Shown here piece after piece: positions 1 to 10,747 of a stretch of DNA of 10,869 nt; within the stretch, counting starts at the first letter, position 1; every line of letters begins with the position of its first letter. This stretch comes from Pseudofrankia asymbiotica. Its GTDB lineage: Bacteria; Actinomycetota; Actinomycetes; Frankiales; Frankiaceae. The position numbers were made by a program, and so were the translations under genes. The stretch lies in assembly GCF_001983105.1 (NCBI RefSeq), contig NZ_MOMC01000055.1, positions 9,248 to 20,116 on the forward strand, written 5' to 3'. The notes under the pieces are model-generated. The model worked only from the letters and a program-made list of their open reading frames with translations. It ran no database searches and was not told where the DNA came from.

Positions 1-1584
1 CGGGCCCTGCTCGACGACCCGGCCGCGGCTCATCACCGAGACCGTGTGGGAGATCTCCGCGACGACCGCCAGGTCGTGCGAGACGAACAGGTAGGACAGG
101 CCAAGCTCGGCCTGCAGCTCGGTGAGCAGCAGCAGGATCTGCTCCTGGACCGAGACGTCGAGGGCCGAGACCGGCTCGTCGAGCATGAGCAGGTCGGGGC
201 GGGGAGCCAGCGCCCTGGCGATCGCGACGCGCTGGCGCTGGCCACCGGACAGCTCGGTGGGCAGGCGGTCGAGGTAGGACGCGGGCAGCGCCACCTGGTC
301 GAGCAGCTCCCTGGCGCGCAGGTGCCGGCTGCGCCGGTCGCCGATCCGGAACGCCACCAGCGGCTCGATGATCGACTGCTTGATCGTGAACTTCGGGTCG
401 AGGGCCGCGAACGGGTTCTGGTGCACGATCTGGGCCTTGCGCCGCAGCGGCCGCAGCCGGCCCCACGACAGGCCGGCCAGCTCCGCGCCGTCCAGGACGA
501 TCGAGCCGCTGGTCGGCGTCTCGAGCCCGAGGGCGATCCGCAGCGTGGTCGTCTTGCCGCAGCCGGACTCGCCGACGAGCGCGTGGGTCTGCCCGCGCGG
601 CACGGCCAGCGAGACGCCGTCGAGCGCGTTGAAGCCACGCTGGCCGCGGCGGCTGTCGCCGGCCCCGAACGTCTTGTGGACGTCGGTGAGGGTCAGGACC
701 GCCTCGGGAGCCGCCTGGCCCCGGACGTCGAAGCGCGGGACGACCCGGCCGCCGTGCGCGAGCCCCGGGGCGGCGGCGATGAGCGCCCGGGTATATGCCT
801 GCCGGGGCGAGACCAGGATCGTCGCCGGGTCGCCCTGCTCGACGACGCGGCCGTCGCGCATGACGAGGACCCGGTCGGCCCGGTCGGCGGCGACCGCCAG
901 GTCGTGCGTGATGAGCAGCAGCGAGATGCCCTGCTCGCGGACCAGGCCGGTCAGGTGGTCGAGAATCCTGCGCTCGACGGTGACGTCGAGGGCGCTGGTC
1001 GGCTCGTCGGCGATGATCAGTTTGGGCCTGCCGGCGAGCGCGATCGCGATGAGCACCCGCTGGCGCAGGCCACCGGACAGCTCGTGCGGGTACTGGCGGG
1101 CCCGCTGCTCCGGGTCGGGCACGCCGGCCTGGCCCAGCAGCTCGTGGACCTCGGCGTCGACGGCGGGCCCGGTGACGCCGCGCAGCCTCACCGCCTCGGC
1201 GATCTGGGCGCCGATCCGCCGGGTCGGGTTGAGGCCGACCATCGGGTCCTGCGGGACCAGGCCGACGACCCGGCCGCGCAGCGGGCGCAGCGTCCTCTCC
1301 TTGGCGCCCGCCGTCTCGACCCCGTCGACGAGGACTGAGCCGGCGGTGACCCGGCCGCTGTCCGGCAGCAGGCCGATGACGGCGCTGGCGGTCGTGGTCT
1401 TGCCCGACCCGGACTCGCCGACGATCGCGACGATCTCCCCGCGGCCGATGGTGAGGTCGAGCCCGATCACGGCCGGCGTGACCCGGCGGTGCCGGACGTA
1501 GCCGACGTCGAGGCCCCTGATCTCGACGATCGGGCCTTCGTCGTCGGTCGGCGCGGTGGCCGGGGCGAGCGTGGTGGCCGTCAT
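1..1584 (-). CDS. Double-domain peptide/nickel-type ABC transporter ATPase (DppD-DppF fusion), 3' end outside window
   Basis: This cytoplasmic ATPase drives the importer formed with the two permeases encoded just upstream. The frame is open from ATG 1584 to base 1, giving 528 residues with no stop, so the C-terminus is cut by the window edge; the family usually runs a few dozen residues further. Two complete nucleotide-binding domains are visible. Domain 1 has Walker A GESGSGKT (56-63), Q-loop Gln112, signature LSGG (169-172), Walker B LIIADEP (189-195), D-loop SALD and H-loop His227. Domain 2 has Walker A GESGCGKT (338-345), Gln389, LSGGQ (445-449), LLMLDEP (465-471) and His503. Both sites therefore look catalytically intact. 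The start overlaps the stop of the permease gene (ATGA), with AGGAG eight bases upstream inside that gene. Fused DppD/DppF ATPases are common in actinobacterial family-5 importers. The substrate cannot be read from this protein. Confidence 0.95.
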
Positions 1585-2639
1585 CGGTCCAGCTCCTGGA
1601 GCGTCTTGGAGATGTGGTTGAGGGCGAGGACCAGCAGGGCCACGAACAGGCCCGGGAGCAGGCTCAGCCAGGAGGCGGTGACCAGGTAGCCGCGCCCGTC
1701 GGAGATCAGGGTTCCCCACTCGGCGGCCGGCGGTTTCGCGCCGAAGCCGAGGAAGCTCAGCGACGCGATCGCGATGATCGCGACCCCGGCGTCCAGCACC
1801 ACCAGGACCGCGACCGGGCCCCACGAGTTGGGCAGGATGTGGCGGACCAGCACCCGGCCCCAGGACGCGCCGCCGGCGCGCGCGGCCTCCACGTACGGCA
1901 GCGTCCTGACCCGCAGCACCTCGGCCCGGGTCGTGCGGGCGAACCCGGGGATGATGCCGACCCCGACGGCGACCGCGACCGGCACGGTGCCGTAGCCGAG
2001 CGCCGTGACGATGGACAGCGCGAGCAGCAGGCCGGGGATCGCCAGCTGCACGTCGACGATCCGCATGAGCAGCGCGTCGACGAACCCGCCCACGAAACCG
2101 GCGACGACGCCGAGCGCGAGGCCGGCGACGACCGCGATGCCCAGCGCGATCAGCGTCGCCTTGATGGTCAGCGCCGAGCCGTGCAGCATCCGGCTCCACA
2201 GGTCGCGGCCGTAGACGTCGGTGCCGAACAGGTGATGGCGGTTCGGCGGGGCGACCGCCAGCTCGGGATGGGTGTCGAAGGGGCTCTGGTGGGCGAACAG
2301 GCCGGGCGCGAAGGCCGAGGCGACCACGAAGAGCACGTAGAGCAGCGCCAGCAGGAAAACCGGCCTGCGGGTGAGCTGCGCGAGGTTCGCGCGCACGCCG
2401 GCCCAGCGCCCGCCGCCCCGCTCGGCGCGGTCCGCGCCGGCCGGCTCGGCGACGCCGGCCACGTCGGCCCCGGCCTCGTCGGCCCCGGCCGTCGCGGTGG
2501 CGCTCGTCGTCACGGTGGCGCCGTTCGCCGCGGCGGCCTCGGTCGTGGCGGAGACCTCGGTCGCGGCGGTGGCGGGGGGCTTGGCGGTGGGCACGAGGGC
2601 CCGGTCCCGCTCGGAGATGAGATGGACGTCCGCGGTCAC
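1581..2639 (-). CDS. DppC-type ABC transporter permease
   Basis: Inner-membrane permease subunit of a peptide/nickel-family importer, 352 residues. The conserved start of the core is seen at LFGTDVYGRDLWSRMLHG (138-154-like region). Hydrophobic spans lie near 93-112, 160-188, 196-215, 218-232, 276-298 and 325-341. The EAA loop that docks on the ATPase is at about 249-270 (YVEAARAGGASWGRVLVRH), and the family motif PPAAEWGTLI follows at 303-312. The start is GTG 2639, overlapping the TGA of the other permease gene, with GGAGG ten bases upstream; no ATG is available before the core. The first roughly 75 residues are an unusual Ala/Thr/Glu-rich, low-complexity cytoplasmic tail. Its stop overlaps the ATPase start, so the subunits are probably translationally coupled. 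Confidence 0.93.
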   Translation of the reverse strand: MTADVHLISERDRALVPTAKPPATAATEVSATTEAAAANGATVTTSATATAGADEAGADVAGVAEPAGADRAERGGGRWAGVRANLAQLTRRPVFLLALLYVLFVVASAFAPGLFAHQSPFDTHPELAVAPPNRHHLFGTDVYGRDLWSRMLHGSALTIKATLIALGIAVVAGLALGVVAGFVGGFVDALLMRIVDVQLAIPGLLLALSIVTALGYGTVPVAVAVGVGIIPGFARTTRAEVLRVRTLPYVEAARAGGASWGRVLVRHILPNSWGPVAVLVVLDAGVAIIAIASLSFLGFGAKPPAAEWGTLISDGRGYLVTASWLSLLPGLFVALLVLALNHISKTLQELDR

Positions 2640-3625
2640 AGGGAACCGACCTCCACGGGGGCGTCGGGGGCACGCACCTTGCCGCCGCGGGCGTGCGAGA
2701 TCCGCGGGTCGAGCAGCGGGTAGAGCAGGTCGACGACCAGGTTGACGAACACGAACAGGGCGGCCGCGACGGTGACGATGCCGAGGACGACGGGCACGTC
2801 CTGGGAGAGCACCGCCTGCTGGGCGAGCCGGCCGATGCCCTCCCGGGTGAAGACCGTCTCGACGACGATCGACTGGGTCACGGTCAGGCCGACTAGCACG
2901 CCGAGGATCGTCATCGCGGGCAGCGCCGCGTTGCGGAACGCGTGCTTGAGGTGCACCGCCGAGCGGGACAGCCCCTTGGCGCGCGCGGTGACGATGTAGG
3001 GCTGGCGCAGCGTCTCCTCGAAGCTCTTGATGAGCACCTGCGCCAGCACCGCCGACGTGAGCAGCGAGATCGTGACGACCGGCATCACCAGCGAGCCGAA
3101 GCCCTGCGTCCCCGTCGCGGGGAAGAGGCCCAGGTTGAACGAGAAGACCTGGATGAGCAGCAGCGCGATGAAGAACTGCGGGAACGACGCGCCGAGCGCC
3201 GGCAGCCGGGACAGGAAGACCCGCAGCGGGTTGAACCGCACGAACGTCGCGACGTACGCCAGCAGGGCGCCGGCGACGAGCGAGACGACCGCGGCGCCCG
3301 CGGACAGCAGCAGGGTCTGGCCGACCCGCTGGCTGATCAGCTCGGTGACCGGGACGTGCTGGGTCAGCGAGGTGCCGAAGTCACCGTGCAGCGCGTCGAC
3401 GAGGTGGTGCCAGTACTGCGCCCAGATGGACTCGTCGAGGCCGAACTGGTGCTTGAGCGCGGCCACCTGCTCGGCGCCGAGGCTGTCCTCGTCGATGCCG
3501 GCGGCGCCGAGCTGCAGCTTCACCGGGTCGCTCGGCAGCAGGTAGAGGATCATGAACGTGACCGTGAACGCGGCCCACAGCACGGCGATCGCCTGCAGGA
3601 CGCGTCCGACGATGTATCTGGTCAT
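2636..3625 (-). CDS. DppB-type ABC transporter permease
   Basis: Inner-membrane permease partner of the DppC-type subunit, 329 residues from the chosen start. It begins MTRYIVGRVLQAIAVLW, the usual DppB opening, with a first membrane span at about 4-30. An extracytoplasmic segment (about 31-100) contains the family-typical FGLDESIWAQYWHHL and GDFGTSL stretches. Further spans lie near 101-128, 150-170, 178-200, 237-258 and 279-305. The EAA loop is at about 210-236 (YIVTARAKGLSRSAVHLKHA). ATG 3625 is preferred to GTG 3643 because AGGGAG (3635-3640) lies nine bases before it and inside the longer version, and because the N-terminus then matches the family. It follows the binding-protein gene by 76 bases that hold a strong hairpin, and its TGA overlaps the GTG of the next permease. 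Confidence 0.93.
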   Translation of the reverse strand: MTRYIVGRVLQAIAVLWAAFTVTFMILYLLPSDPVKLQLGAAGIDEDSLGAEQVAALKHQFGLDESIWAQYWHHLVDALHGDFGTSLTQHVPVTELISQRVGQTLLLSAGAAVVSLVAGALLAYVATFVRFNPLRVFLSRLPALGASFPQFFIALLLIQVFSFNLGLFPATGTQGFGSLVMPVVTISLLTSAVLAQVLIKSFEETLRQPYIVTARAKGLSRSAVHLKHAFRNAALPAMTILGVLVGLTVTQSIVVETVFTREGIGRLAQQAVLSQDVPVVLGIVTVAAALFVFVNLVVDLLYPLLDPRISHARGGKVRAPDAPVEVGSL

Positions 3626-3634
3626 TCGCTTGGG

Positions 3635-3640
3635 CTCCCT
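3635..3640 (-). promoter_or_regulatory. Ribosome binding site deciding the DppB-type start
   Basis: AGGGAG on the minus strand sits nine bases upstream of ATG 3625. It would fall inside the coding region if GTG 3643 were used, which argues for the shorter protein. Confidence 0.6.
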
Positions 3641-3659
3641 CACGAGGGTCCGCGGCGTA

Positions 3660-3701: not shown

Positions 3702-5387
3702 CTAGCTGTTGTCCTTCCACACGTCGTTGAGCCGCAGGAAGCTCTCCGAGGTGAACGCGAAGCCGTGGAGGTGGCTGGAGACGCCGGCCATCTGCACCCG
3801 CTCGAACAGCGGGAAGGAGATGCCCTCGTCGATCAGGTAGTCCTGCAGGTCGGCGTAGGCCTTGGAGATCTGGGCCTCGTCGGTGGTCTGCAGGGCCTGC
3901 TTGAACAGCCCCTGGAGGTGCGCGATGACCTCCGGCGACGCCGAGCGGTTCGCGAGCGCCTTCGAGTTCGCCACGTCCGGGTTGAGGATGAACTGCAGCG
4001 CGCCGGGGTTGGCCCGGGTGAAGTAGGTGCTCGTCAGGTCGTAGTCGCCGCTCGGCAGGTACGTCGACTGCTCGGCCGGGGTCAGCGTGCGCAGGCTCAG
4101 GTTGATGCCGACCTTCTTCAGCTGGGCCTGGAGCAGCTCGGCGCCGGCGGTGAACTGGGTGACCGGGTAGTCGAGCGTCAGCTCCTTGCCGTCCTTGAAG
4201 CGGAAGCCGTCCTTGCCGACCGTCCAGCCGGCCGCGTCGAGGATCTTCTGCGCGCCCGCCGGGTCGTAGGCGAGCTTCGCGGACTCCGACTTGAAGTACG
4301 GCGTGGTCGAGTTGAAGACGCCCTGGACGACCGGGTAGTCGGGCCCGAAGACCGTCGACGCGTACGTCTTGACGTCGATCGCCTTGTAGAGCGCCTCACG
4401 GAGCTGCGGGTCGGCGAGCGGATGCCCGTCGGCGGTGTTCGCGAAGTGGGTGTTGGCGACGCCCGGCAGGGCGCGCTGCTCGACCGTGTCGCCCGACTTC
4501 TCGATCAGCTTGGTGTCCTGGACCGTGAACGGGTTACGCGGCCAGGCGATGTCGATCGCCCCGCTGACCAGGTTCCCGGTGCGGACGCTGTCCTCGCCGA
4601 CGTAGGTGAAGATGACCTTGTCGAGGTACGCCGCGCCCTTGTTCTGGACGAGCTCCGACGGCCAGCCGTACGGCGTCGGCCGCTTGGTCAGGACCGTCTC
4701 GACCTTCGCGGTGTAGTGGTCGAGGACGAACTGGCCGGAGCCGATGACGCCCTTGCCGGTGCAGCGGTCGGCCGGCGTGGCCTGGTACTCGGCCGGGTCG
4801 GTGATCGCCAGGTTCGTCGTCGACGTCGCCTGCAGGAACGACGAGTTCGGCTGGCTGAGGTGCAGCCGCACGGTCGCCGGGTCGACGACGGTCGCGCCCG
4901 TCAGGCCCTGCACGTAGGAGGAGCCGTACGCCACGCCCTTGGTCGCCGCGACGGTGGCGACCCAGCCGGCGGCGTCGTCGGCGACGAGCTGAGCGTCGAC
5001 CTTCTTGCCGTTGCTGAGGGTGACGCCGTCCCGGAGATGGAAGGTGTAGGTCAGGCCGTCGGAGCTGATCTCCCAGCTCTTCGCCAGCCAGGGCACGATC
5101 TTCCCGGTCTTCGGGTCCTGGTCGGTGAGGGAGTCCGCGAAGTTGCGGATGATCGTGCGGTGCTCGATCCAGTACACCTGGAACGGGTCGATGCAGGACA
5201 GGACCGGGTTGTCGGGGAAGAACGAGACCTTCAGGGCCCCGCCGGTCCTGGGCTCGCTCCCGGCCGGTGCCGCCGCCTGGCTGTTCCCACCGCCGCAGGC
5301 GGCCAGGGCCAGGAGCCCGGCGGTGGCGGCGGCGGCGAGGGGGAGGCGGCGCCCGGCCCGTGGGGCCAGACGTCTCAGGATGGTCAT
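3702..5387 (-). CDS. Family-5 extracellular solute-binding lipoprotein of the ABC importer
   Basis: Captures the substrate outside the membrane and hands it to the two permeases. It has 561 residues from ATG 5387, preceded by AAAGGG with a seven-base spacer; the open frame extends to 5420 but that extension adds no signal. The N-terminus is a lipoprotein signal: Arg-rich n-region, hydrophobic stretch at 15-30 and lipobox LAAC with Cys31, then a Gly/Ala linker. The family-5 (DppA/OppA/NikA) signature region is at about 98-131 (PWLAKSWEISSDGLTYTFHL, then RDGV and DA). Length fits the family. Two further cysteines, in LSCIDPF (Cys65) and DRCTGKG (Cys209), could form a disulfide. A family-5 fold can bind peptides, nickel, opines or other small molecules. 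Context with monooxygenases suggests an organosulfur ligand, perhaps like the predicted KPN_01854-type binding proteins; that family link is from memory and unverified. Confidence 0.93.
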   Translation of the reverse strand: MTILRRLAPRAGRRLPLAAAATAGLLALAACGGGNSQAAAPAGSEPRTGGALKVSFFPDNPVLSCIDPFQVYWIEHRTIIRNFADSLTDQDPKTGKIVPWLAKSWEISSDGLTYTFHLRDGVTLSNGKKVDAQLVADDAAGWVATVAATKGVAYGSSYVQGLTGATVVDPATVRLHLSQPNSSFLQATSTTNLAITDPAEYQATPADRCTGKGVIGSGQFVLDHYTAKVETVLTKRPTPYGWPSELVQNKGAAYLDKVIFTYVGEDSVRTGNLVSGAIDIAWPRNPFTVQDTKLIEKSGDTVEQRALPGVANTHFANTADGHPLADPQLREALYKAIDVKTYASTVFGPDYPVVQGVFNSTTPYFKSESAKLAYDPAGAQKILDAAGWTVGKDGFRFKDGKELTLDYPVTQFTAGAELLQAQLKKVGINLSLRTLTPAEQSTYLPSGDYDLTSTYFTRANPGALQFILNPDVANSKALANRSASPEVIAHLQGLFKQALQTTDEAQISKAYADLQDYLIDEGISFPLFERVQMAGVSSHLHGFAFTSESFLRLNDVWKDNS

Positions 5388-5487
5388 GCGGGTGCCCTTT
5401 CGGAACCAGGCACGCGGCACCTCGGACGAGGCGCGCGGCAGGGATGGATGGCGGTGCGCTGAGGGTGGGTGGCGCGGGACGGGTGGT

Positions 5488-6708
5488 TCAGGCGCCGAGG
5501 ACGCGGCGGCCGCTTGCCAGCAGGGCGGCGTCCTCCTGCGGCGGGTGCACCCGGATACAGAGCGCGTCGCGCAGGTGGCGCTCCAGCGGGTGGTGGCGGG
5601 ACAGGCCCGGGTTGCCCAGGGCCGCGACCGCGGTCTGGGTGGCGGCGATCACCGAGCGGGCGACGGCCGCCTTCAGGACGGACAGCTCGGGCACGAGCGA
5701 GGTGTCGCCGGCCTCGAGCCGCAGCAGCGCGCCGTGCAGCAGCGTCTCCGCCTGGACGACCTGCAGGTCGATCTCGCCGGCGACCGCCTGGATCCGCTCG
5801 GTCGTCGCGATCGGCCGGCCGAGCGCGGAGGGCACCCGCGAGCGGGCGAACTCGGCGAACGCCGCGCGGGCCGCCCTGGCGACGCCGACGTAGAGCGCCG
5901 GATGGCCGAAGCCGCCCGGCCCGGCCATCGCGGCCGGGTCCCGGTACACGCCGTCGGGCCCGCGGGGGATCTCGACGAACGCGTCGGCGGGGAGCTCCAC
6001 GTTCTCGTAGATCACGTCGTCGGTGTGGGTGGCACGCAGGCCCAGGTGGTCCCAGGTCCGGACCCAGCGAATGCCGGGGCGGCCGCCCGGGACGATCACG
6101 TGGCCGACGCGGGGCCGCGCGGGGTCGCCGCCCGGCTCGTCGGCGACCGCCCACACGACGTGGTAGGCCAGCGCCTCGCCGCCGCTGCCGTAGGCCTTGT
6201 GCCCGCTCAGCACCCAGCCGTCGGCGGTCCGGGTCGCGGTGGTCTTCGGGATGCCGCCGCGGGCCGGGGCGCCCAGCTCCGGCTCGGCGCGGATCGCGTT
6301 GACCAGCGCCGGGCCGTCGAGGGAGCGGCGCAGCAGGTCGTCGTAGTACGCCACCGGCCAGTGCGGGTGCGCGGCCTGGCCCGCGTGGCTCATCAGCAGG
6401 TTGGACGCGAGCAGGCCGACCGAGGCGTCGCCCTCGCCGATGGCCGTCAGGATCCGGACCAGGTCACGCTGGCCGACCCCCGGGCCGCCGTACCGCCGGC
6501 CGACGGTGGCGGTGAGCAGGCCCGCGCGGAACGCGACGTCGAGGCCCTTCCACGGCGTCTCGCCGGTGCGGTCGTACTCGGTGGCCGTCCCGGCGATCCC
6601 GGCGGTCACCGCCGCGAGCCCCTCGGCCGACAGGTCGGGAACCGGGAAGTCGTAGGCCGCCGCCTCGGGCGCGCTGTCGACCCGCACGCCGCCGGTGGCC
6701 GTGGTCAT
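5488..6708 (-). CDS. Acyl-CoA-dehydrogenase-fold flavin oxidoreductase, SfnB/DszC monooxygenase type
   Basis: 406 residues from ATG 6708, which overlaps the stop of the luciferase-family gene (ATGA); there is no good SD, so coupled translation is likely. The open frame extends much further upstream, but only inside that neighbour. The acyl-CoA-dehydrogenase layout is visible: N-terminal helices (about 26-130) with RYGGPGVGQRDLVRIL and GEGDASVG; middle beta domain with GWVLSGHKAYGSGG (164-177) and DHLGLRATHTDDVIYENVEL (220-239); C-terminal helical domain with GHPALYVGVARAARAAF (268-284). The end, HPLERHLRDALCIRVHPPQED (373-393), resembles the SfnB/DszC group of reduced-flavin-dependent monooxygenases rather than true dehydrogenases, and no dehydrogenase catalytic Glu is evident. 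SfnB-type proteins belong to sulfur acquisition. A reaction on C-S or S-oxidised substrates is inferred; the substrate is unknown. Confidence 0.88.
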   Translation of the reverse strand: MTTATGGVRVDSAPEAAAYDFPVPDLSAEGLAAVTAGIAGTATEYDRTGETPWKGLDVAFRAGLLTATVGRRYGGPGVGQRDLVRILTAIGEGDASVGLLASNLLMSHAGQAAHPHWPVAYYDDLLRRSLDGPALVNAIRAEPELGAPARGGIPKTTATRTADGWVLSGHKAYGSGGEALAYHVVWAVADEPGGDPARPRVGHVIVPGGRPGIRWVRTWDHLGLRATHTDDVIYENVELPADAFVEIPRGPDGVYRDPAAMAGPGGFGHPALYVGVARAARAAFAEFARSRVPSALGRPIATTERIQAVAGEIDLQVVQAETLLHGALLRLEAGDTSLVPELSVLKAAVARSVIAATQTAVAALGNPGLSRHHPLERHLRDALCIRVHPPQEDAALLASGRRVLGA

Positions 6709-7913
6709 GCCTGGCCCGCCGTCGCGTACCGGGAGTACTCCGGGGCGTAGTTGCCGAGGTGCTCGGCCTGCAGGGTGCCGCGCCGGCCGGTCTCCCTGCG
6801 ATGGGCGATCTCCTGGCGCACCAGCGGCAGCACGTACCGGCCGTAGTCCACCGCGTCGGCGAGGGTGTCGTACCCGCGGATCGAGACGAGCGACGCGCCG
6901 CGGTCGACGTAGTCGAGGATCGCGGCGGCGACCGTCTCGGGCGACCCGACCAGCGCGGTCGAGGCGCCGGCGGCGCCCGTGACGGCGGCGGTCTTGGTCC
7001 ACAGCGCGCGGTCGTAGAGCTCGGAGCGGTTCGCGAACGCGAGCGCGCGCTTCGAGCCGACGTTCTGCGGCGCCCCCTTGCCGATCATCCGCCCGGCGTA
7101 CTTCTGGAAGCTCTCGGCGACCTTCGCCACGTAGTCGTGCGCCTTCTCCCAGGCCAGCTCGTCGGTCCTCGCGATGATCGGGCGGAAGGTCACCCAGATC
7201 CGCGGCAGGGTGGTCCGCCCGGAGGCGCGGGCGATGCCGTTCACCCGCTCGATCTCGGAGCGCAGGTCGTCGAGCGGCTCGCCCCAGAAGCTGAAGATGT
7301 CGGCCTTCTCGCCGCCCACCTGGAACGCCTCGTCGGACTGGCCGCCGATCGAGATCGGGATCGGCGACGCGTAGGGCGCGAAGCCCGGGCCGAAGTCGTC
7401 GAACCGGTAGAACTCGCCGTCGTGGCTGAACGGCGCGGACTCGGTCCACGAGCGGCGCAGGACGTCGACGTACTCCGAGGTGCGGGCGTAGCGCCGCTCC
7501 TTCGGCAGGTAGTCGCCCTGGCGGGCCTGCTCCGCGTCGCTGCCCCCGGAGATGAGGTGCACGACGGCCCGGCCCTCGGTCAGCTGGTCGAGGGTGGCGA
7601 GCTTCTGCGCGCCGACGGTCGGGAACGTGGTGTTCGGCCGCAGCGCGACGATCGGGCGGATCCGCTCGGTGAGCTGGCCGACCGCGCTGGCGACGACGAA
7701 CGAGTCGGCGCTGTTCGAGCCGTAGGGCAGCAGCGTGTAGTCGTAGCCACCCTCCTCAAGGGCGGCCACGTAGCGGCGGAAGTACGCCAGGTCGATGCCC
7801 CTGGTCGGGACCGGGTTCAGCTCCGTCGACGGGTTCAGGTGCGAGAGGCTGATGAACTCCACCTCGGGCGAGGCGGTCTCGGGAATGGCCGAGTCGAAGT
7901 CGGGCACGGTCAT
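6705..7913 (-). CDS. SsuD-like luciferase-family (LLM) flavin-dependent monooxygenase
   Basis: 402 residues from ATG 7913, with AGAGG seven bases upstream; the frame opens earlier (to 7955) but that extension has no ribosome site. Motifs follow alkanesulfonate monooxygenase SsuD in order: ALRPNTTFPTVGAQKLATLD (90-109), LTEGRAVVHLISGG (111-124), RRYARTSEYVDVLRRSW (140-156), PIPISIGGQSDEAF (184-197), FWGEPLDDLRSEIERV (209-224) and TALVGSPETVAAAILDYVDR (319-338). Such enzymes are cytoplasmic TIM barrels that use FMNH2 and O2, often to cleave C-S bonds. Aligned by eye to remembered E. coli SsuD, Tyr331 is kept (Tyr348), but Cys54, Arg226, His228 and Arg297 appear as Ser68, Thr242, Arg244 and Thr312. 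The substrate is therefore probably not a simple alkanesulfonate. It is coupled to the SfnB-type gene by an ATGA overlap. No flavin reductase is nearby. Confidence 0.92.
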   Translation of the reverse strand: MTVPDFDSAIPETASPEVEFISLSHLNPSTELNPVPTRGIDLAYFRRYVAALEEGGYDYTLLPYGSNSADSFVVASAVGQLTERIRPIVALRPNTTFPTVGAQKLATLDQLTEGRAVVHLISGGSDAEQARQGDYLPKERRYARTSEYVDVLRRSWTESAPFSHDGEFYRFDDFGPGFAPYASPIPISIGGQSDEAFQVGGEKADIFSFWGEPLDDLRSEIERVNGIARASGRTTLPRIWVTFRPIIARTDELAWEKAHDYVAKVAESFQKYAGRMIGKGAPQNVGSKRALAFANRSELYDRALWTKTAAVTGAAGASTALVGSPETVAAAILDYVDRGASLVSIRGYDTLADAVDYGRYVLPLVRQEIAHRRETGRRGTLQAEHLGNYAPEYSRYATAGQA

Positions 7914-7968
7914 GGAAGGTCCTCTCGACGACGTTCGGAGTCTCAGCGAGGTCACGACGGCGCGGGGT

Positions 7969-8037: not shown

Positions 8038-8811
8038 TCAGGCGCGGGACTCGGCGTCCCTGCCCGGCTCGCCCAGCGACTCCGCCACCGCGATCGGGGC
8101 CAGCTCGGCGCCGCCGCGCAGGCGCTCCAGGAACTGCACGACGACGGCGGCGACGGTGCGATGGGTCTGGTCGTTGAGCGCGTCGTGCAGGCCGCCGACG
8201 ATGGTCACCAGTTCGGCCGACGGCGCGGACGCGTACCAGCGGCGCGCCAGAGCGACCGGGCTGAGCAGGTCGTTGCGGCCGTGCAGGCCCAGCACGGGCA
8301 GGTGGAGCTTGCCGGGGGTCGCCGGGTCGAACCAGTCGGCGGGCAGGTCGCTGAACAGCGCCGCCCGGCGCACCCCGGCCTCGGTGATCCGTCCCCGGTG
8401 GGCGCCGCAGGCGGTGCGGACGGCCAGCTCGTCGTCCCAGTCGCGGGCCGGCTGTGCCGCGGAGCCGGCCGGCAGGCCGGCGAGCACCAGCGCGGAGACC
8501 CCGTCGAGCTGCCCGCCCGCCACCAGGTGGGCGGCGTAGGCCGCGCCCGCGTCCGAGCCGACGACGACCCGGGGAGCGTCGGCGTCCGCCGCGTCGAGCA
8601 CGCCGAGCAGTTCGTCGCGCGCCTGGTCCGGGGCGTCGGCCGGGGCCGCCACCGCGTGCACGCGGTAGCTGTCGGTGGCCAGGCGGCGGCCGAAACGCTC
8701 GTACACCCGCGGGGACTCGCCCCGGCCCGGCAGCACGACCAGCGTGCCGCGCAGCGCCGGCCCGCTGGGCTCATACCAGCTGAGAACCGTGGCTTCCTGG
8801 GCGAGGGTCAT
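8038..8811 (-). CDS. Alpha/beta-hydrolase-fold protein with Asp in the nucleophile position
   Basis: First structural gene of the apparent operon, 257 residues from ATG 8811, with AAAGG six bases upstream; an upstream in-frame ATG at 8844 lacks a ribosome site. Fold features are the beta-strand and oxyanion-loop region LVVLPGRGESPRVYERFGRRL (24-44), the nucleophile elbow VVVGSDAGAAYAAHL (82-96), the acid-loop sequence VLGLHGRNDLLSP (173-185) and the histidine loop IVGGLHDALN (204-213). The predicted triad is Asp87-Asp181-His209. Asp rather than Ser at the G-x-Nuc-x-G position is typical of haloalkane dehalogenases and epoxide hydrolases, and uncommon in esterases or thioesterases; Ser86 next to it is an alternative if the elbow is shifted. 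Soluble and without a signal peptide. It probably acts on a product or substrate of the monooxygenases, but its reaction cannot be named. Confidence 0.85.
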   Translation of the reverse strand: MTLAQEATVLSWYEPSGPALRGTLVVLPGRGESPRVYERFGRRLATDSYRVHAVAAPADAPDQARDELLGVLDAADADAPRVVVGSDAGAAYAAHLVAGGQLDGVSALVLAGLPAGSAAQPARDWDDELAVRTACGAHRGRITEAGVRRAALFSDLPADWFDPATPGKLHLPVLGLHGRNDLLSPVALARRWYASAPSAELVTIVGGLHDALNDQTHRTVAAVVVQFLERLRGGAELAPIAVAESLGEPGRDAESRA

Positions 8812-8918
8812 GACGGACCTTTCGTCGAAAATGGCGGCGGGCATGCGTCACCGCGCCGCTGGACGGCGTCGGGCATGGCACTGGGCATAGCGGCACTGGG
8901 CATAAGGGCACTGGGCAT
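8808..8918 (-). CDS. Possible small upstream ORF with MPSA repeats, coupled to the hydrolase gene
   Basis: A 36-residue frame starts at ATG 8918 (MPSALMPSAAMPSAMPDAVQ, then 16 more residues) and ends in a TGA that overlaps the hydrolase start as ATGA. The 15-bp tandem repeats fall in frame, so each copy brings its own ATG. There is no Shine-Dalgarno sequence before the first ATG and no family resemblance. It may be a chance frame through the repeats, or a short ORF that couples ribosome arrival to the hydrolase start. Confidence 0.2.
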   Translation of the reverse strand: MPSALMPSAAMPSAMPDAVQRRGDACPPPFSTKGPS

Positions 8919-8921
8919 GGC
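8877..8921 (-). repeat. Three 15-bp tandem repeats in the operon leader
   Basis: On the plus strand GGCACTGGGCATAGC, GGCACTGGGCATAAG and GGCACTGGGCATGGC follow one another without gaps at 8877-8891, 8892-8906 and 8907-8921. They share the first 12 bases. A fourth, separate copy with two mismatches (GGTACTGGGAATGGC) lies at 9013-9027, and GGGCAT recurs at 8871-8876. They lie between the cysteine leader and the hydrolase gene, so they would be in the untranslated part of the message. They could be a protein binding array, an RNA element or a simple replication-slippage expansion. Confidence 0.85.
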
Positions 8922-8966
8922 CGGAGAGCGGCCGTGGGGAGACCGGCTGGCGCGGGACAGCGCACC

Positions 8967-8994
8967 GACCGCCCTGCTCGATGGCGAGGCGGTC
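8967..8994 (-). promoter_or_regulatory. Hairpin in the operon leader
   Basis: GACCGCC (8967-8973) and GGCGGTC (8988-8994) form a perfect 7-bp stem around 14 bases, inside which CTCG and CGAG can pair again. It lies between the cysteine-rich leader ORF and the hydrolase gene and is a candidate element of the attenuator. Smaller 5-bp hairpins are at 8854-8868 and 8919-8933. Confidence 0.4.
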
Positions 8995-9025
8995 CAGGGG
9001 TGGGCTAAGGGCGGTACTGGGAATG

Positions 9026-9043
9026 GCCGCGTGCCGGCGCGGC
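9026..9043 (-). promoter_or_regulatory. Hairpin 19 bases after the cysteine leader stop
   Basis: GCCGCG (9026-9031) and CGCGGC (9038-9043) make a perfect 6-bp GC stem with a six-base loop. In the message it begins 19 bases after the leader TGA, so a ribosome paused on the cysteine codons or at the stop would lie close to it or cover its 5' side. This is the placement expected for a translation-sensitive attenuator; no T-tract follows, so if it acts, it would need Rho or effects on RNA folding. Confidence 0.4.
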
Positions 9044-9062
9044 GCGTGTCACGGCGTCAGCG

Positions 9063-9206
9063 TCAGTGACAGCACATGGTGCCGCAGCGCATGAAGTCGA
9101 TCACGCGACGACGGGTGAGGCGTCGCCGGGACGCGCGGGCAGCGGGGGTCGAGCCCGCGGCGGCGGACCGCGACACCGCGCGGCGCTCGCCGCCAATCTC
9201 GACCAT
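9063..9206 (-). CDS. Cysteine-rich leader peptide, probable cysteine-responsive attenuator ORF
   Basis: A 47-residue ORF from ATG 9206 to TGA 9063-9065, 251 bases upstream of the hydrolase gene. Its C-terminal part reads RRRVIDFMRCGTMCCH (32-47), with Cys41, Cys45 and Cys46 encoded TGC, TGC, TGT at the very end. The RRxIDxxR-like core and terminal cysteines resemble actinobacterial leader peptides found before sulfur-assimilation genes and the polycysteine leaderless ORFs described in mycobacteria, where translation senses cysteine supply. The ATG lies seven bases after a -10-like TATCTT, so the transcript probably starts at the ATG. The N-terminal half is Arg/Ala-rich and featureless. Shorter starts (GTG 9104, ATG 9092) have no ribosome site. 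The sulfur context of the operon supports the call; regulation itself is inferred. Confidence 0.65.
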   Translation of the reverse strand: MVEIGGERRAVSRSAAAGSTPAARASRRRLTRRRVIDFMRCGTMCCH

Positions 9207-9213
9207 GCCGGTA

Positions 9214-9242
9214 AAGATAATTGGTATTTGCCCGTCTGGCCA
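9214..9242 (-). promoter_or_regulatory. Promoter of the leader and sulfur-type operon
   Basis: A rare AT-rich patch holds -10-like TATCTT (9214-9219 on the minus strand), fitting the actinobacterial TANNNT pattern. Seventeen bases upstream is TGGCCA (9237-9242), matching TTGACA at four of six positions. The -10 box ends seven bases before ATG 9206, which puts the expected start of transcription at or within a base of that ATG. Confidence 0.55.
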
Positions 9243-9268
9243 GCGACGATTCGCGATCGCACCGATCT

Positions 9269-9293
9269 CGCCGGCTTATCACCGCCGCCGGCG
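9269..9293. repeat. 7-bp inverted repeat upstream of the operon promoter
   Basis: CGCCGGC (9269-9275) and GCCGGCG (9287-9293) flank 11 bases. It lies between the FAD-oxidase terminator hairpin and the operon promoter. It could add to termination of the oxidase message or be an operator; neither is shown. Confidence 0.35.
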
Positions 9294-9314
9294 CCAGGCA
9301 CGCGGTCCGGCGGC

Positions 9315-9360
9315 GGCCACGGTCGACGAGCAGCGAGAGGCCTCGGTCGGGACCGTGGCC
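9315..9360 (-). terminator. Probable terminator or 3' hairpin of the FAD-linked oxidase gene
   Basis: GGCCACGGTC (9315-9324) and GACCGTGGCC (9351-9360) are a perfect 10-bp inverted repeat around 26 bases. The loop contains a small palindrome GAGGCCTC (9337-9344) that could fold inside. It begins ten bases after the TAG at 9371-9373. There is no T-run, as is usual for GC-rich actinobacterial terminators. It would separate the oxidase transcript from the operon below. Confidence 0.55.
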
Positions 9361-9370
9361 CTAGGTTTCG

Positions 9371-10747
9371 CTAGATGGCCTTGCCGGGGTTGAGGATGCC
9401 CTTCGGGTCGAAGACGCCTTTGATCTGGCGCTGCAGGGCGCCGACGTCCTCGCCCAGCTCGGCGCGCATCCAGCGGCGCTTGAGCACGCCGACGCCATGC
9501 TCGCCGCTCACCGTGCCACCCAGGTCGAGCGCGGCGCGGAAGATGCTGTCCGCGGCCTCCTGGACGGCCGGGTCGGACGGCTCCTGGCCCTCGGACAGGA
9601 CGATGATCGGGTGCAGGTTGCCGTCGGCCGCGTGCGCGAACGTATGGATCGACGTCCCGGTCGCCGTCGCCGCGGCACGCACCGCCTCGACCGCCGCGGG
9701 CAGCCGGGAACGGGGGACGCTGATGTCCTCGATCAGCACTCGTCCGACGCGTTCCAGCGCGGGCAGCGCGGCGCGGCGCACGGCCGTCAGCCGCGCGCCC
9801 TCGACCGGGTCGGTGGTGACCTCGAGATCGGTCGCGTACCGGCGCAGCTCCCGCGCCGCCTGATCGGCCTCCGCCTCGGCCGCGGCGCCGTCGGTCTGCA
9901 TCAGCAGAAACGCGGCGCCCCTGGCTCGCAGGTCGGTGCCCAGGTGCTCGTCGATGCGCGTGAGCGTCGCCGCGTCGATGAACTCGGCGATCGCCGGCAC
10001 CACCCCGGCCGCGCGAACCGCGCCGACGGCGGCGAAGGCGCTCGCCGCGCCGGGGAGGTGGGCGCAGATCGTCGCTGTGGCGGCGGGGATCGGCCGCAGC
10101 CGCAGCGCGGCGCCGACGATCACCCCGAGTGTTCCCTCCGAGCCCACGAACAGGCTGGTCAGGTCGTAGCCGGCGACTCCCTTGATCGCCCGCCTGCCGG
10201 TGTGGATGAGACGGCCGTCGGCCAGGACCACGTCCAGACCGAGGACGGCGTCGCGGGTGACCCCGTACTTCGCGCATCGCAGCCCACCGGCGTTGGTGGC
10301 GATGTTGCCGCCGATCGTCGAGATCTCGACGCTGGCGGGGTCCGGGGCGTAGCGCAGGCCGTGGCGGTGCGCCTCCCGGTCGAGGTCGGCGGTCAGCACG
10401 CCTGGCTCGACGATCGCGAGCTCGTCCGGCGCGGTGACCTCCACGATGCGGTTCAGCCCGGTCAGGTCGAGGACGATCCCACCGTCGGCGGCCGTCGCCG
10501 CGCCGGCGAGCCCGGTACCCGCGCCGCGGGCGACCACCGGTATCGCGGTCTGGTGCGCGAAGCGCAGGACATGCTGCACGCCGGCGACGCCGCGCACGGA
10601 CGCCACGACGGCCGGGCGGACATCCGGCGTCCAGCCCGAACGGTCGAACCGGTGCGCGTCGAGCACCGCGGGATCGGTCCGCCAGTCGACGTCGTCATGC
10701 GGGGGCAGGTCGTCGTGCGGGGGCAGCCTGTCCAGGCGCGCCGTCAT
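9371..10747 (-). CDS. GlcD-type FAD-linked 2-hydroxyacid oxidase/dehydrogenase
   Basis: 458 residues from ATG 10747, the first in-frame ATG; no strong ribosome site precedes it. The N-terminal FAD-binding (PCMH, FAD_binding_4) domain shows VVARGAGTGLAGAA (71-84), PDPASVEISTIGGNIATNAG (135-154), GLRCAKYGV and RRAIKGVAGYDLTSLFVGSE (185-204) with GTLG following. The C-terminal FAD-oxidase domain shows FAHAADGNLHP (370-380) and SGEHGVG (414-420). Length and motifs match GlcD and D-lactate dehydrogenases, which oxidise glycolate, D-lactate or related 2-hydroxyacids to 2-oxoacids; the exact substrate cannot be told. It is cytoplasmic or peripheral, as no signal is present. It ends with KGILNPGKAI, typical of the family. 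No GlcE/GlcF partner is present in the window. A terminator-like hairpin follows, so it is probably its own transcript and not part of the sulfur-type operon. Confidence 0.93.
   Translation of the reverse strand: MTARLDRLPPHDDLPPHDDVDWRTDPAVLDAHRFDRSGWTPDVRPAVVASVRGVAGVQHVLRFAHQTAIPVVARGAGTGLAGAATAADGGIVLDLTGLNRIVEVTAPDELAIVEPGVLTADLDREAHRHGLRYAPDPASVEISTIGGNIATNAGGLRCAKYGVTRDAVLGLDVVLADGRLIHTGRRAIKGVAGYDLTSLFVGSEGTLGVIVGAALRLRPIPAATATICAHLPGAASAFAAVGAVRAAGVVPAIAEFIDAATLTRIDEHLGTDLRARGAAFLLMQTDGAAAEAEADQAARELRRYATDLEVTTDPVEGARLTAVRRAALPALERVGRVLIEDISVPRSRLPAAVEAVRAAATATGTSIHTFAHAADGNLHPIIVLSEGQEPSDPAVQEAADSIFRAALDLGGTVSGEHGVGVLKRRWMRAELGEDVGALQRQIKGVFDPKGILNPGKAI
10691..10726 (-). repeat. 18-bp in-frame tandem duplication at the start of the FAD-oxidase gene
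   Basis: Two 18-base copies (10691-10708 and 10709-10726) differ at one base and encode LPPHDD twice, at residues 8-19. The first few residues of GlcD-like proteins are variable, so this is probably tolerated. Confidence 0.85.

Follow-up and report, generated by a model that had tools for sequence, protein, structure and literature searches.

A 47-codon open reading frame (ORF) on the minus strand of a 10,869-nt stretch of Pseudofrankia asymbiotica DNA (the window, by which we mean the whole stretch analysed) is best explained, with a probability of roughly three in four, as a cis-acting, leaderless, cysteine-responsive leader, in which a ribosome pause at a UGU codon would be read out through the untranslated trailer and would control the operon that follows. 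The ORF is conserved in its genus and constrained as an amino acid sequence in its tail, its promoter has a recurrent geometry, it has relatives across the class with a marked bias to UGU at one Cys codon, and it is followed by a C-rich trailer that lacks a recognisable terminator. The kind of element is already known, and the window leader is an addition to the cysteine leaders (Seliverstov 2005; Canestrari 2020). New here, as read from the aligned leaders, is the rule that the aligned Cys codon is UGU while the Arg and Asp codons upstream of it vary freely. This rule was not found stated in the text, figures and the main mycobacterial paper aside, of the literature searched for it. Through the leader, a monooxygenase/importer operon that is so far uncharacterised would be tied to the supply of cysteine.

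The leader ORF, its promoter and the operon behind it

The leader ORF starts with an ATG at 9206, stops with a TGA at 9065-9063 and has the C-terminus RRRVIDFMRCGTMCCH (RCGTMCCH*). The initial annotation had described a 47-codon ORF with this ending and a TATCTT box 7 nt before its ATG, and all of these elements are present at the coordinates that it gave. The features of the leader and its promoter are the following.

9063-9206, minus strand: leader ORF MVEIGGERRAVSRSAAAGSTPAARASRRRLTRRRVIDFMRCGTMCCH, probably leaderless (ORF reading; orthologs in L033-L036 and L066)
9066-9119, minus strand: conserved leader tail, codons 30-47, LTRRRVIDFMRCGTMCCH (pN/pS and invariant columns)
9069-9071, minus strand: putative sensor Cys codon TGT (codon 46), nine residues past the conserved Asp (codon counts across leaders)
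9072-9074, minus strand: Cys codon 45 (TGC in the window), adjoining the putative sensor codon (Cys in the 5 orthologous operons)
9096-9110, minus strand: RR-x-x-D core, 9-13 residues N-terminal of the putative sensor Cys (leader alignment)
9214-9219, minus strand: predicted -10 element TATCTT, 7 nt before the ATG (spacing kept in the ten best-matching leaders)
9237-9242, minus strand: -35-like TGGCCA, 17-nt spacer to TATCTT (5-ortholog alignment; sister-leader layout)
9244-9259, minus strand: conserved block CGATCGCGAATCGTCG upstream of the -35, possible operator (invariant in 5/5; similar block in sister promoters)

The three Cys residues that had been noted near the end of the ORF do exist in the window, at codons 41 (TGC), 45 (TGC) and 46 (TGT), but only the pair at 45-46 is conserved: it is kept in 5/5 orthologous operons, and codon 41 is Arg in three of the five. 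Purifying selection acts on the tail, pN/pS being 0.32 for codons 30-47 versus 0.89 for codons 1-29 (six leaders), and 14 of the 22 invariant columns in an alignment of five leaders fall in codons 30-47. Codons 1-29 are weakly constrained, with the exception of MVE and some individual positions.

Nineteen stretches around monooxygenase matches in relatives were compared. Five of them, all from the window's genus, have the complete operon together with a close hydrolase (at least 71% identity). The leader precedes the operon in all four other genomes of the genus that carry the operon and its upstream region on one contig (L033-L036); in L037 the contig breaks off within the hydrolase gene, and a separate contig, L066, carries the leader by itself. 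The initial annotation had proposed aligning the upstream regions of orthologous operons, and this alignment bore out its expectation: the CC pair, the tail and the promoter-to-ATG spacing are all conserved, in support of its reading of the ORF as a cysteine attenuator. The ten best-matching leaders have TAnnnT-N7-ATG without exception, and three of these precede another monooxygenase type. A supposed second leader copy on contig C94 (83% DNA match over about 50 bases) was rejected after a three-frame reading, which encodes no leader. No NCBIfam model matches the window leader, which counts against reading it as a leader. A protein database search with the leader alignment yielded 17 candidates, of which three were short proteins, one labelled 'hypothetical protein' and two nameless.

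Because of the spacing between promoter and ATG, transcription is predicted to start at or beside the ATG at 9206, and the window leader would fit a leaderless geometry. Among the 165 unique leaders described below, TAnnnT stands exactly 7 nt 5' of an in-frame ATG or GTG in 70, compared with 0, 1, 6, 4, 7, 4 and 1 at spacings of 4, 5, 6, 8, 9, 10 and 11 nt (23 in total) and with none at 7 nt in the two other frames. The strict TAnnnT at 7 nt is absent from 95 of the 165, which is again counted against the leader reading; judged by eye, [CG]ATnnT occurs at that distance in 21 of 25 listed family leaders. Sister leaders have the layout TTGGACA-N17-[CG]ATnnT-N7-ATG, with an upstream block, GCGATCGCGGATCGGCG, that resembles the one in the window. 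A pattern made from these sister promoters has 12 matching sites, spread over 7 of 35 genomes in the bacterial family, and 0 when read backwards; it misses the window itself, which differs in the upstream block. A generic sigma-70 scan called no promoter at the leader. A second block, GGTGATAAGC (9274-9283, minus strand), is also invariant in 5/5 orthologs, and the blocks CGATCGCGAATCGTCG and GGTGATAAGC are possibly a transcription-factor site acting on top of leader control. As a genome-wide operator the CGATCGCGAATCGTCG block was rejected, with one exact and seven two-mismatch sites against three for the reversed pattern.

The leader is followed by a trailer and, on the same strand, by the genes listed here in order of transcription.

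8812-9062, minus strand: C-rich trailer from the leader stop to the first gene, C/G 1.51 (composition; no intrinsic terminator found)
8818-8823, minus strand: putative ribosome-binding site GAAAGG of the first operon gene (sequence; conserved in 5/5)
8038-8811, minus strand: alpha/beta hydrolase, first structural gene (Pfam Hydrolase_4; ortholog in L033-L036)
6705-7955, minus strand: LLM-class flavin monooxygenase, best matches alkanesulfonate monooxygenase/SfnG (all below curated cut-offs)
5488-6705, minus strand: acyl-CoA-dehydrogenase-like, SfnB/DszC-related (below curated cut-offs)
3702-5420, minus strand: substrate-binding protein of an ABC importer, TIGR04028-like (below curated cut-off)
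2636-3643 and 1581-2639, minus strand: ABC importer permeases, peptide/nickel type (profile matches)
1 to about 1583, minus strand: ABC importer double ATPase, cut by the window edge (profile matches)

The window leader thus precedes genes of sulfur-acquisition type, whose matches in the window lie below curated cut-offs, and the operon is a probable sulfur-scavenging operon. Just upstream lies a GlcD-like FAD oxidase (9371-10747, minus strand), which is beside the operon in L033 also and was not found beside it in L034-L036. In L034, an ORF with ketopantoate-reductase and rhodanese domains (5196-7058, plus strand) sits between the hydrolase and the monooxygenase; it is absent from the window.

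A class-wide leader family and its UGU codon

A profile of 37 leader tails gave matches in 243 of the 296 genomes sampled from the class (E 0.005 per genome), so that the sequence rule finds candidate cysteine leaders in most of the sample, from which many of the 37 profile leaders themselves stem. The window leader, itself among the rows that define the profile, has the family's tail (Arg-Arg, Asp and a Cys nine residues later) and, judged by this tail, is a member of a widespread actinobacterial cysteine-leader family with the motif LTRRRxVDFxR...C. Another group, from the window's own bacterial family, has the tail LTRRRxVDFGILxSxCCR and similar, and often stands before a related monooxygenase or hydrolase. 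A class-wide motif of the LTRRRxVDF type is not mentioned in the text, figures aside, of the cysteine-leader literature examined.

Where the genes behind family leaders were looked up, they include SsuA-like, DszC/SfnB-like and sulfurtransferase genes (below curated cut-offs), flavin monooxygenase genes and DUF1416. Some leaders precede genes without an evident sulfur role (an IclR regulator, an amidohydrolase), which is counted against the leader reading, one precedes an acyl-CoA-dehydrogenase homologue, and the ORFs downstream of L071, L096 and L106 had no match in the library searched. A search of the window's own genome gave 11 matches at E up to 1, of which the window leader and five others, down to E 0.0034, were examined. 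These five precede a sir/nirA-like gene followed by cysH (the latter above cut-off), a taurine/sulfonate-binding protein gene, a ROK gene with a TauD-like one farther downstream, a rhodanese gene with DUF4395, and a TauD gene; the leader before this TauD gene is itself a weak match (E 0.003). The statement in the initial annotation that actinobacterial sulfur genes carry such leaders holds for this genome as well as for others of the class.

Runs of at least three Cys are found in 10 of the 29 listed leaders of family f4 (e.g., LTKRRAVDLCRVAGCCCCCCSC in G037), and the polycysteine leaders of f4 share the core LTxRRxVDxxR. Family f4 is probably the mycobacterial family, since the leader of a Tomitella cavernea record is identical to one of its members. 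This record and one of Frankia canadensis were the only two matches when the collection was scanned with a DNA pattern that proved too strict. In 46 of 127 leaders (140 less 11 that did not fit the anchoring pattern and two duplicates) there is only one Cys after the Asp.

Codon usage was counted in 165 unique leaders, a set that excludes matches below 20 bits, those without the anchor [VIL]D[FLYTHQ], those ending more than 10 residues past the match and those with an identical core; conservation of the Asp and the Cys in this set is partly by construction, and codon choice is not. The aligned Cys codon, nine residues past the Asp, is TGT in 161 leaders and TGC in four, whereas the other 243 Cys codons of the same leaders comprise 74 TGT and 169 TGC (Fisher p 6e-49, a value that ignores common descent). 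One of the four TGC leaders, L110, carries an additional residue, and the position after its aligned Cys is a Cys too. For comparison, the longest downstream ORFs of an earlier set of 139 contain 113 TGT and 403 TGC, and the window's genes 1 TGT and 7 TGC. TGT is in the majority in 16/16 families (112 genomes), seven of them represented by one leader each. The single aligned Cys, in this spelling, is what the examined leaders share across the class.

The other conserved residues behave differently. Arg at the fourth position before the Asp is present in 165/165 leaders with all six codons in use (2.20 bits versus 0.16 bits for the Cys), Arg at the third position before it in 155/165 with varied synonymous codons, and the Asp, which is itself part of the pattern used to pick the rows, is GAC in 113 and GAT in 52. 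Since the Arg and Asp codons vary and the Cys codon is fixed, the tail appears to be held as protein and the Cys also as a codon; conservation as amino acids rather than as codons is what is expected of an arrest peptide. A single tRNA-Cys match, with anticodon GCA, was found in each of 8/8 genomes of the genus, by a strict pattern that also admits ACA and that a Cys tRNA with another loop sequence would escape. The anticodon GCA reads UGU by G-U wobble. The bias suggests that UGU acts as a sensor responsive to decoding, with assistance from a motif in the nascent peptide.

The base that follows UGU is C in 154 of the 161 leaders although the residue encoded there varies (Arg, Pro, His), which amounts to a four-base constraint, UGU-C, and given this C the UGU could serve something other than decoding. 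RNA pairing was rejected as the ground for UGU: in the stretch 20-160 nt downstream, 0/165 leaders have an exact 7-mer complement to the UGU segment, and GACA, which occurs there in 38/165 leaders, is no commoner than its permutations (16-43).

Trailer, proposed mechanism and alternatives

The trailer is C-rich and G-poor in all orthologs (C/G 1.35-1.51 in 5/5), and its length, from the leader stop to the first gene, is 199-303 nt across them and 251 nt in the window. In 164 leaders the first 50 nt of the trailer have a C content of 0.436 versus 0.299 for G, a bias that fades downstream, and C exceeds G in these 50 nt in 140/164 leaders, versus 80/158 for the stretch 200-250 nt upstream of the stop. 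An untranslated, C-rich and G-poor trailer is what Rho-dependent control of the tna type calls for. An Rfam search of 8600-9500 gave one match, at E 0.98 and far below the gathering score. Soon after the leader stop there is a GC-rich hairpin (9026-9043, minus strand), kept in only five of seven close leaders. For the segment that begins 9 nt past the T of UGU, an exact 7-mer complement occurs downstream in 21/165 leaders, against 0-7 at other offsets; some leaders therefore have a hairpin that starts near the stop. Tandem ATGCCCAGTGCC-like repeats lie in the trailer at 8860-8920 (minus strand), with an altered form in L033; by eye, none were seen in L034-L036.

We propose that transcription would start at or next to the leader ATG, which would also be where ribosomes initiate. 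Under a shortage of Cys-tRNA, a ribosome would pause with the conserved UGU (9071-9069) in its A site. At that moment the segment LTRRRVIDFMR of the nascent chain, roughly 6-16 residues behind the paused position, would lie in the exit tunnel, where it probably reinforces or adjusts the pause. The paused ribosome would prevent the C-rich trailer from ending or blocking expression, and the sulfur-scavenging operon would be made. With plentiful cysteine, the ribosome would finish and leave, and the operon would be turned down, perhaps most likely by Rho. With slow wobble decoding, UGU may register the level of Cys-tRNA more sensitively; in the E. coli leu leader, a rare Leu codon as sensor provides a precedent. 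The proposal predicts that a silent UGU-to-UGC change would weaken sensing, and that a change of the Arg or the Asp would do so with the Cys intact. If it is true, codon-starvation attenuation and arrest peptides are combined in one element. The extension of this scheme to the whole class, as a two-part sensor with a wobble-read UGU switch and an LTRRRxVDFxR arrest segment through which one signal would govern many sulfur operons (six candidates in this genome), with the mycobacterial polycysteine run as an elaboration, is more tentative and in our judgement falls just short of an even chance.

That the ORF arose by chance in GC-rich DNA, where long ORFs are indeed common in all frames, has next to no probability: its frame, its start and its distance from the promoter are seen again in related leaders and purifying selection acts on the tail, so the leader is more than chance, and the class-wide family refutes this reading as well. 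It is also very unlikely that the ORF encodes a functional small protein whose Cys residues serve in metal or redox binding. Such a protein would account for a conserved peptide motif with varied synonymous codons, but the leader lies in cis before genes of several kinds, most of those examined being related to sulfur, its N-terminal part is under hardly any constraint, more than a third of the 127 leaders have a single Cys after the Asp, and this Cys is held as the codon UGU, for which protein function has no need. A classical transcription attenuator with an intrinsic terminator has general precedent among amino-acid leaders and is highly improbable here, given that 0 terminator-like sites were found in 8700-9400 and that an intrinsic terminator within 300 nt was found for 2/165 leaders, compared with 1/165 in shuffles.

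How a paused ribosome would reach the operon is less clear-cut. Instead of Rho acting on the trailer, the trailer RNA might hide the first gene's ribosome site until a ribosome that pauses at the Cys codons frees it; a mechanism of this type is reported for mycobacterial relatives, as cited in PMC13236596 and PMC9031893. When the leader up to the Cys codons was masked in predicted folds, access to GAAAGG rose in three of five orthologs (0.54 to 0.57, 0.62 to 0.81 and 0.41 to 0.51), as such translational attenuation would have it, but it stayed the same in one (0.80) and fell in the window (0.55 to 0.38). Moreover, even the full folds leave GAAAGG 0.41-0.80 unpaired, and the distance of 199-303 nt from leader stop to first gene also speaks against this model, which we regard as on the unlikely side. 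We lean towards the Rho readout, which is the least secure step of the proposed mechanism.

Comparison with known leaders

In TnaC of E. coli, a nascent-peptide stall shields a Rho site. The window leader is compared with TnaC and leuL for its proposed mechanism, and its signal would be a shortage of Cys-tRNA. For the mycobacterial polycysteine leaderless short ORFs, cysteine-responsive attenuation is said to have been described by Canestrari in 2020 (Mol Microbiol 114:93).

In the earlier literature, Cys leader peptides were predicted in 2005 for the cys operons of Mycobacterium and P. acnes and for cbs of B. longum, with Rho suggested weakly for the mycobacterial cys leaders (Seliverstov; PMC1262725), and a Cys-rich ORF that is conserved before cysA2 and occupied by ribosomes was described in M. 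smegmatis in 2015 (Shell; PMC4633059). As far as the text of PMC1262725 goes, figures aside, the leaders of 2005 share with the window leader Cys codons near the stop, the lack of a terminator hairpin and possible Rho sites in the trailer, and they differ in having runs of Cys codons; a UGU preference and LTRRRxVDF go unmentioned in that text. The leader ORF uORFC-8-2 before cysS in Rhodobacterales (PMC8632094) also has Cys codons and presumed Cys-tRNA sensing, but it has an intrinsic terminator and stems, and UGC dominates in it, the reverse of the window's family.

With the mycobacterial polycysteine ORFs, the window leader has in common a short ORF before sulfur genes, Cys near the stop and a core, LTxRRxVDxxR, that recurs in the polycysteine leaders of f4. 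In contrast to them, it has no Cys run beyond CC, with one further Cys that is non-conserved, a variable N-terminal stretch of 29 codons and a long C-rich trailer without a consistent blocker of the ribosome site. Because it has only the CC at codons 45-46, the window leader is a relative of these ORFs rather than a strict polycysteine ORF, and it differs from them also in what it is predicted to control, a monooxygenase/importer operon.
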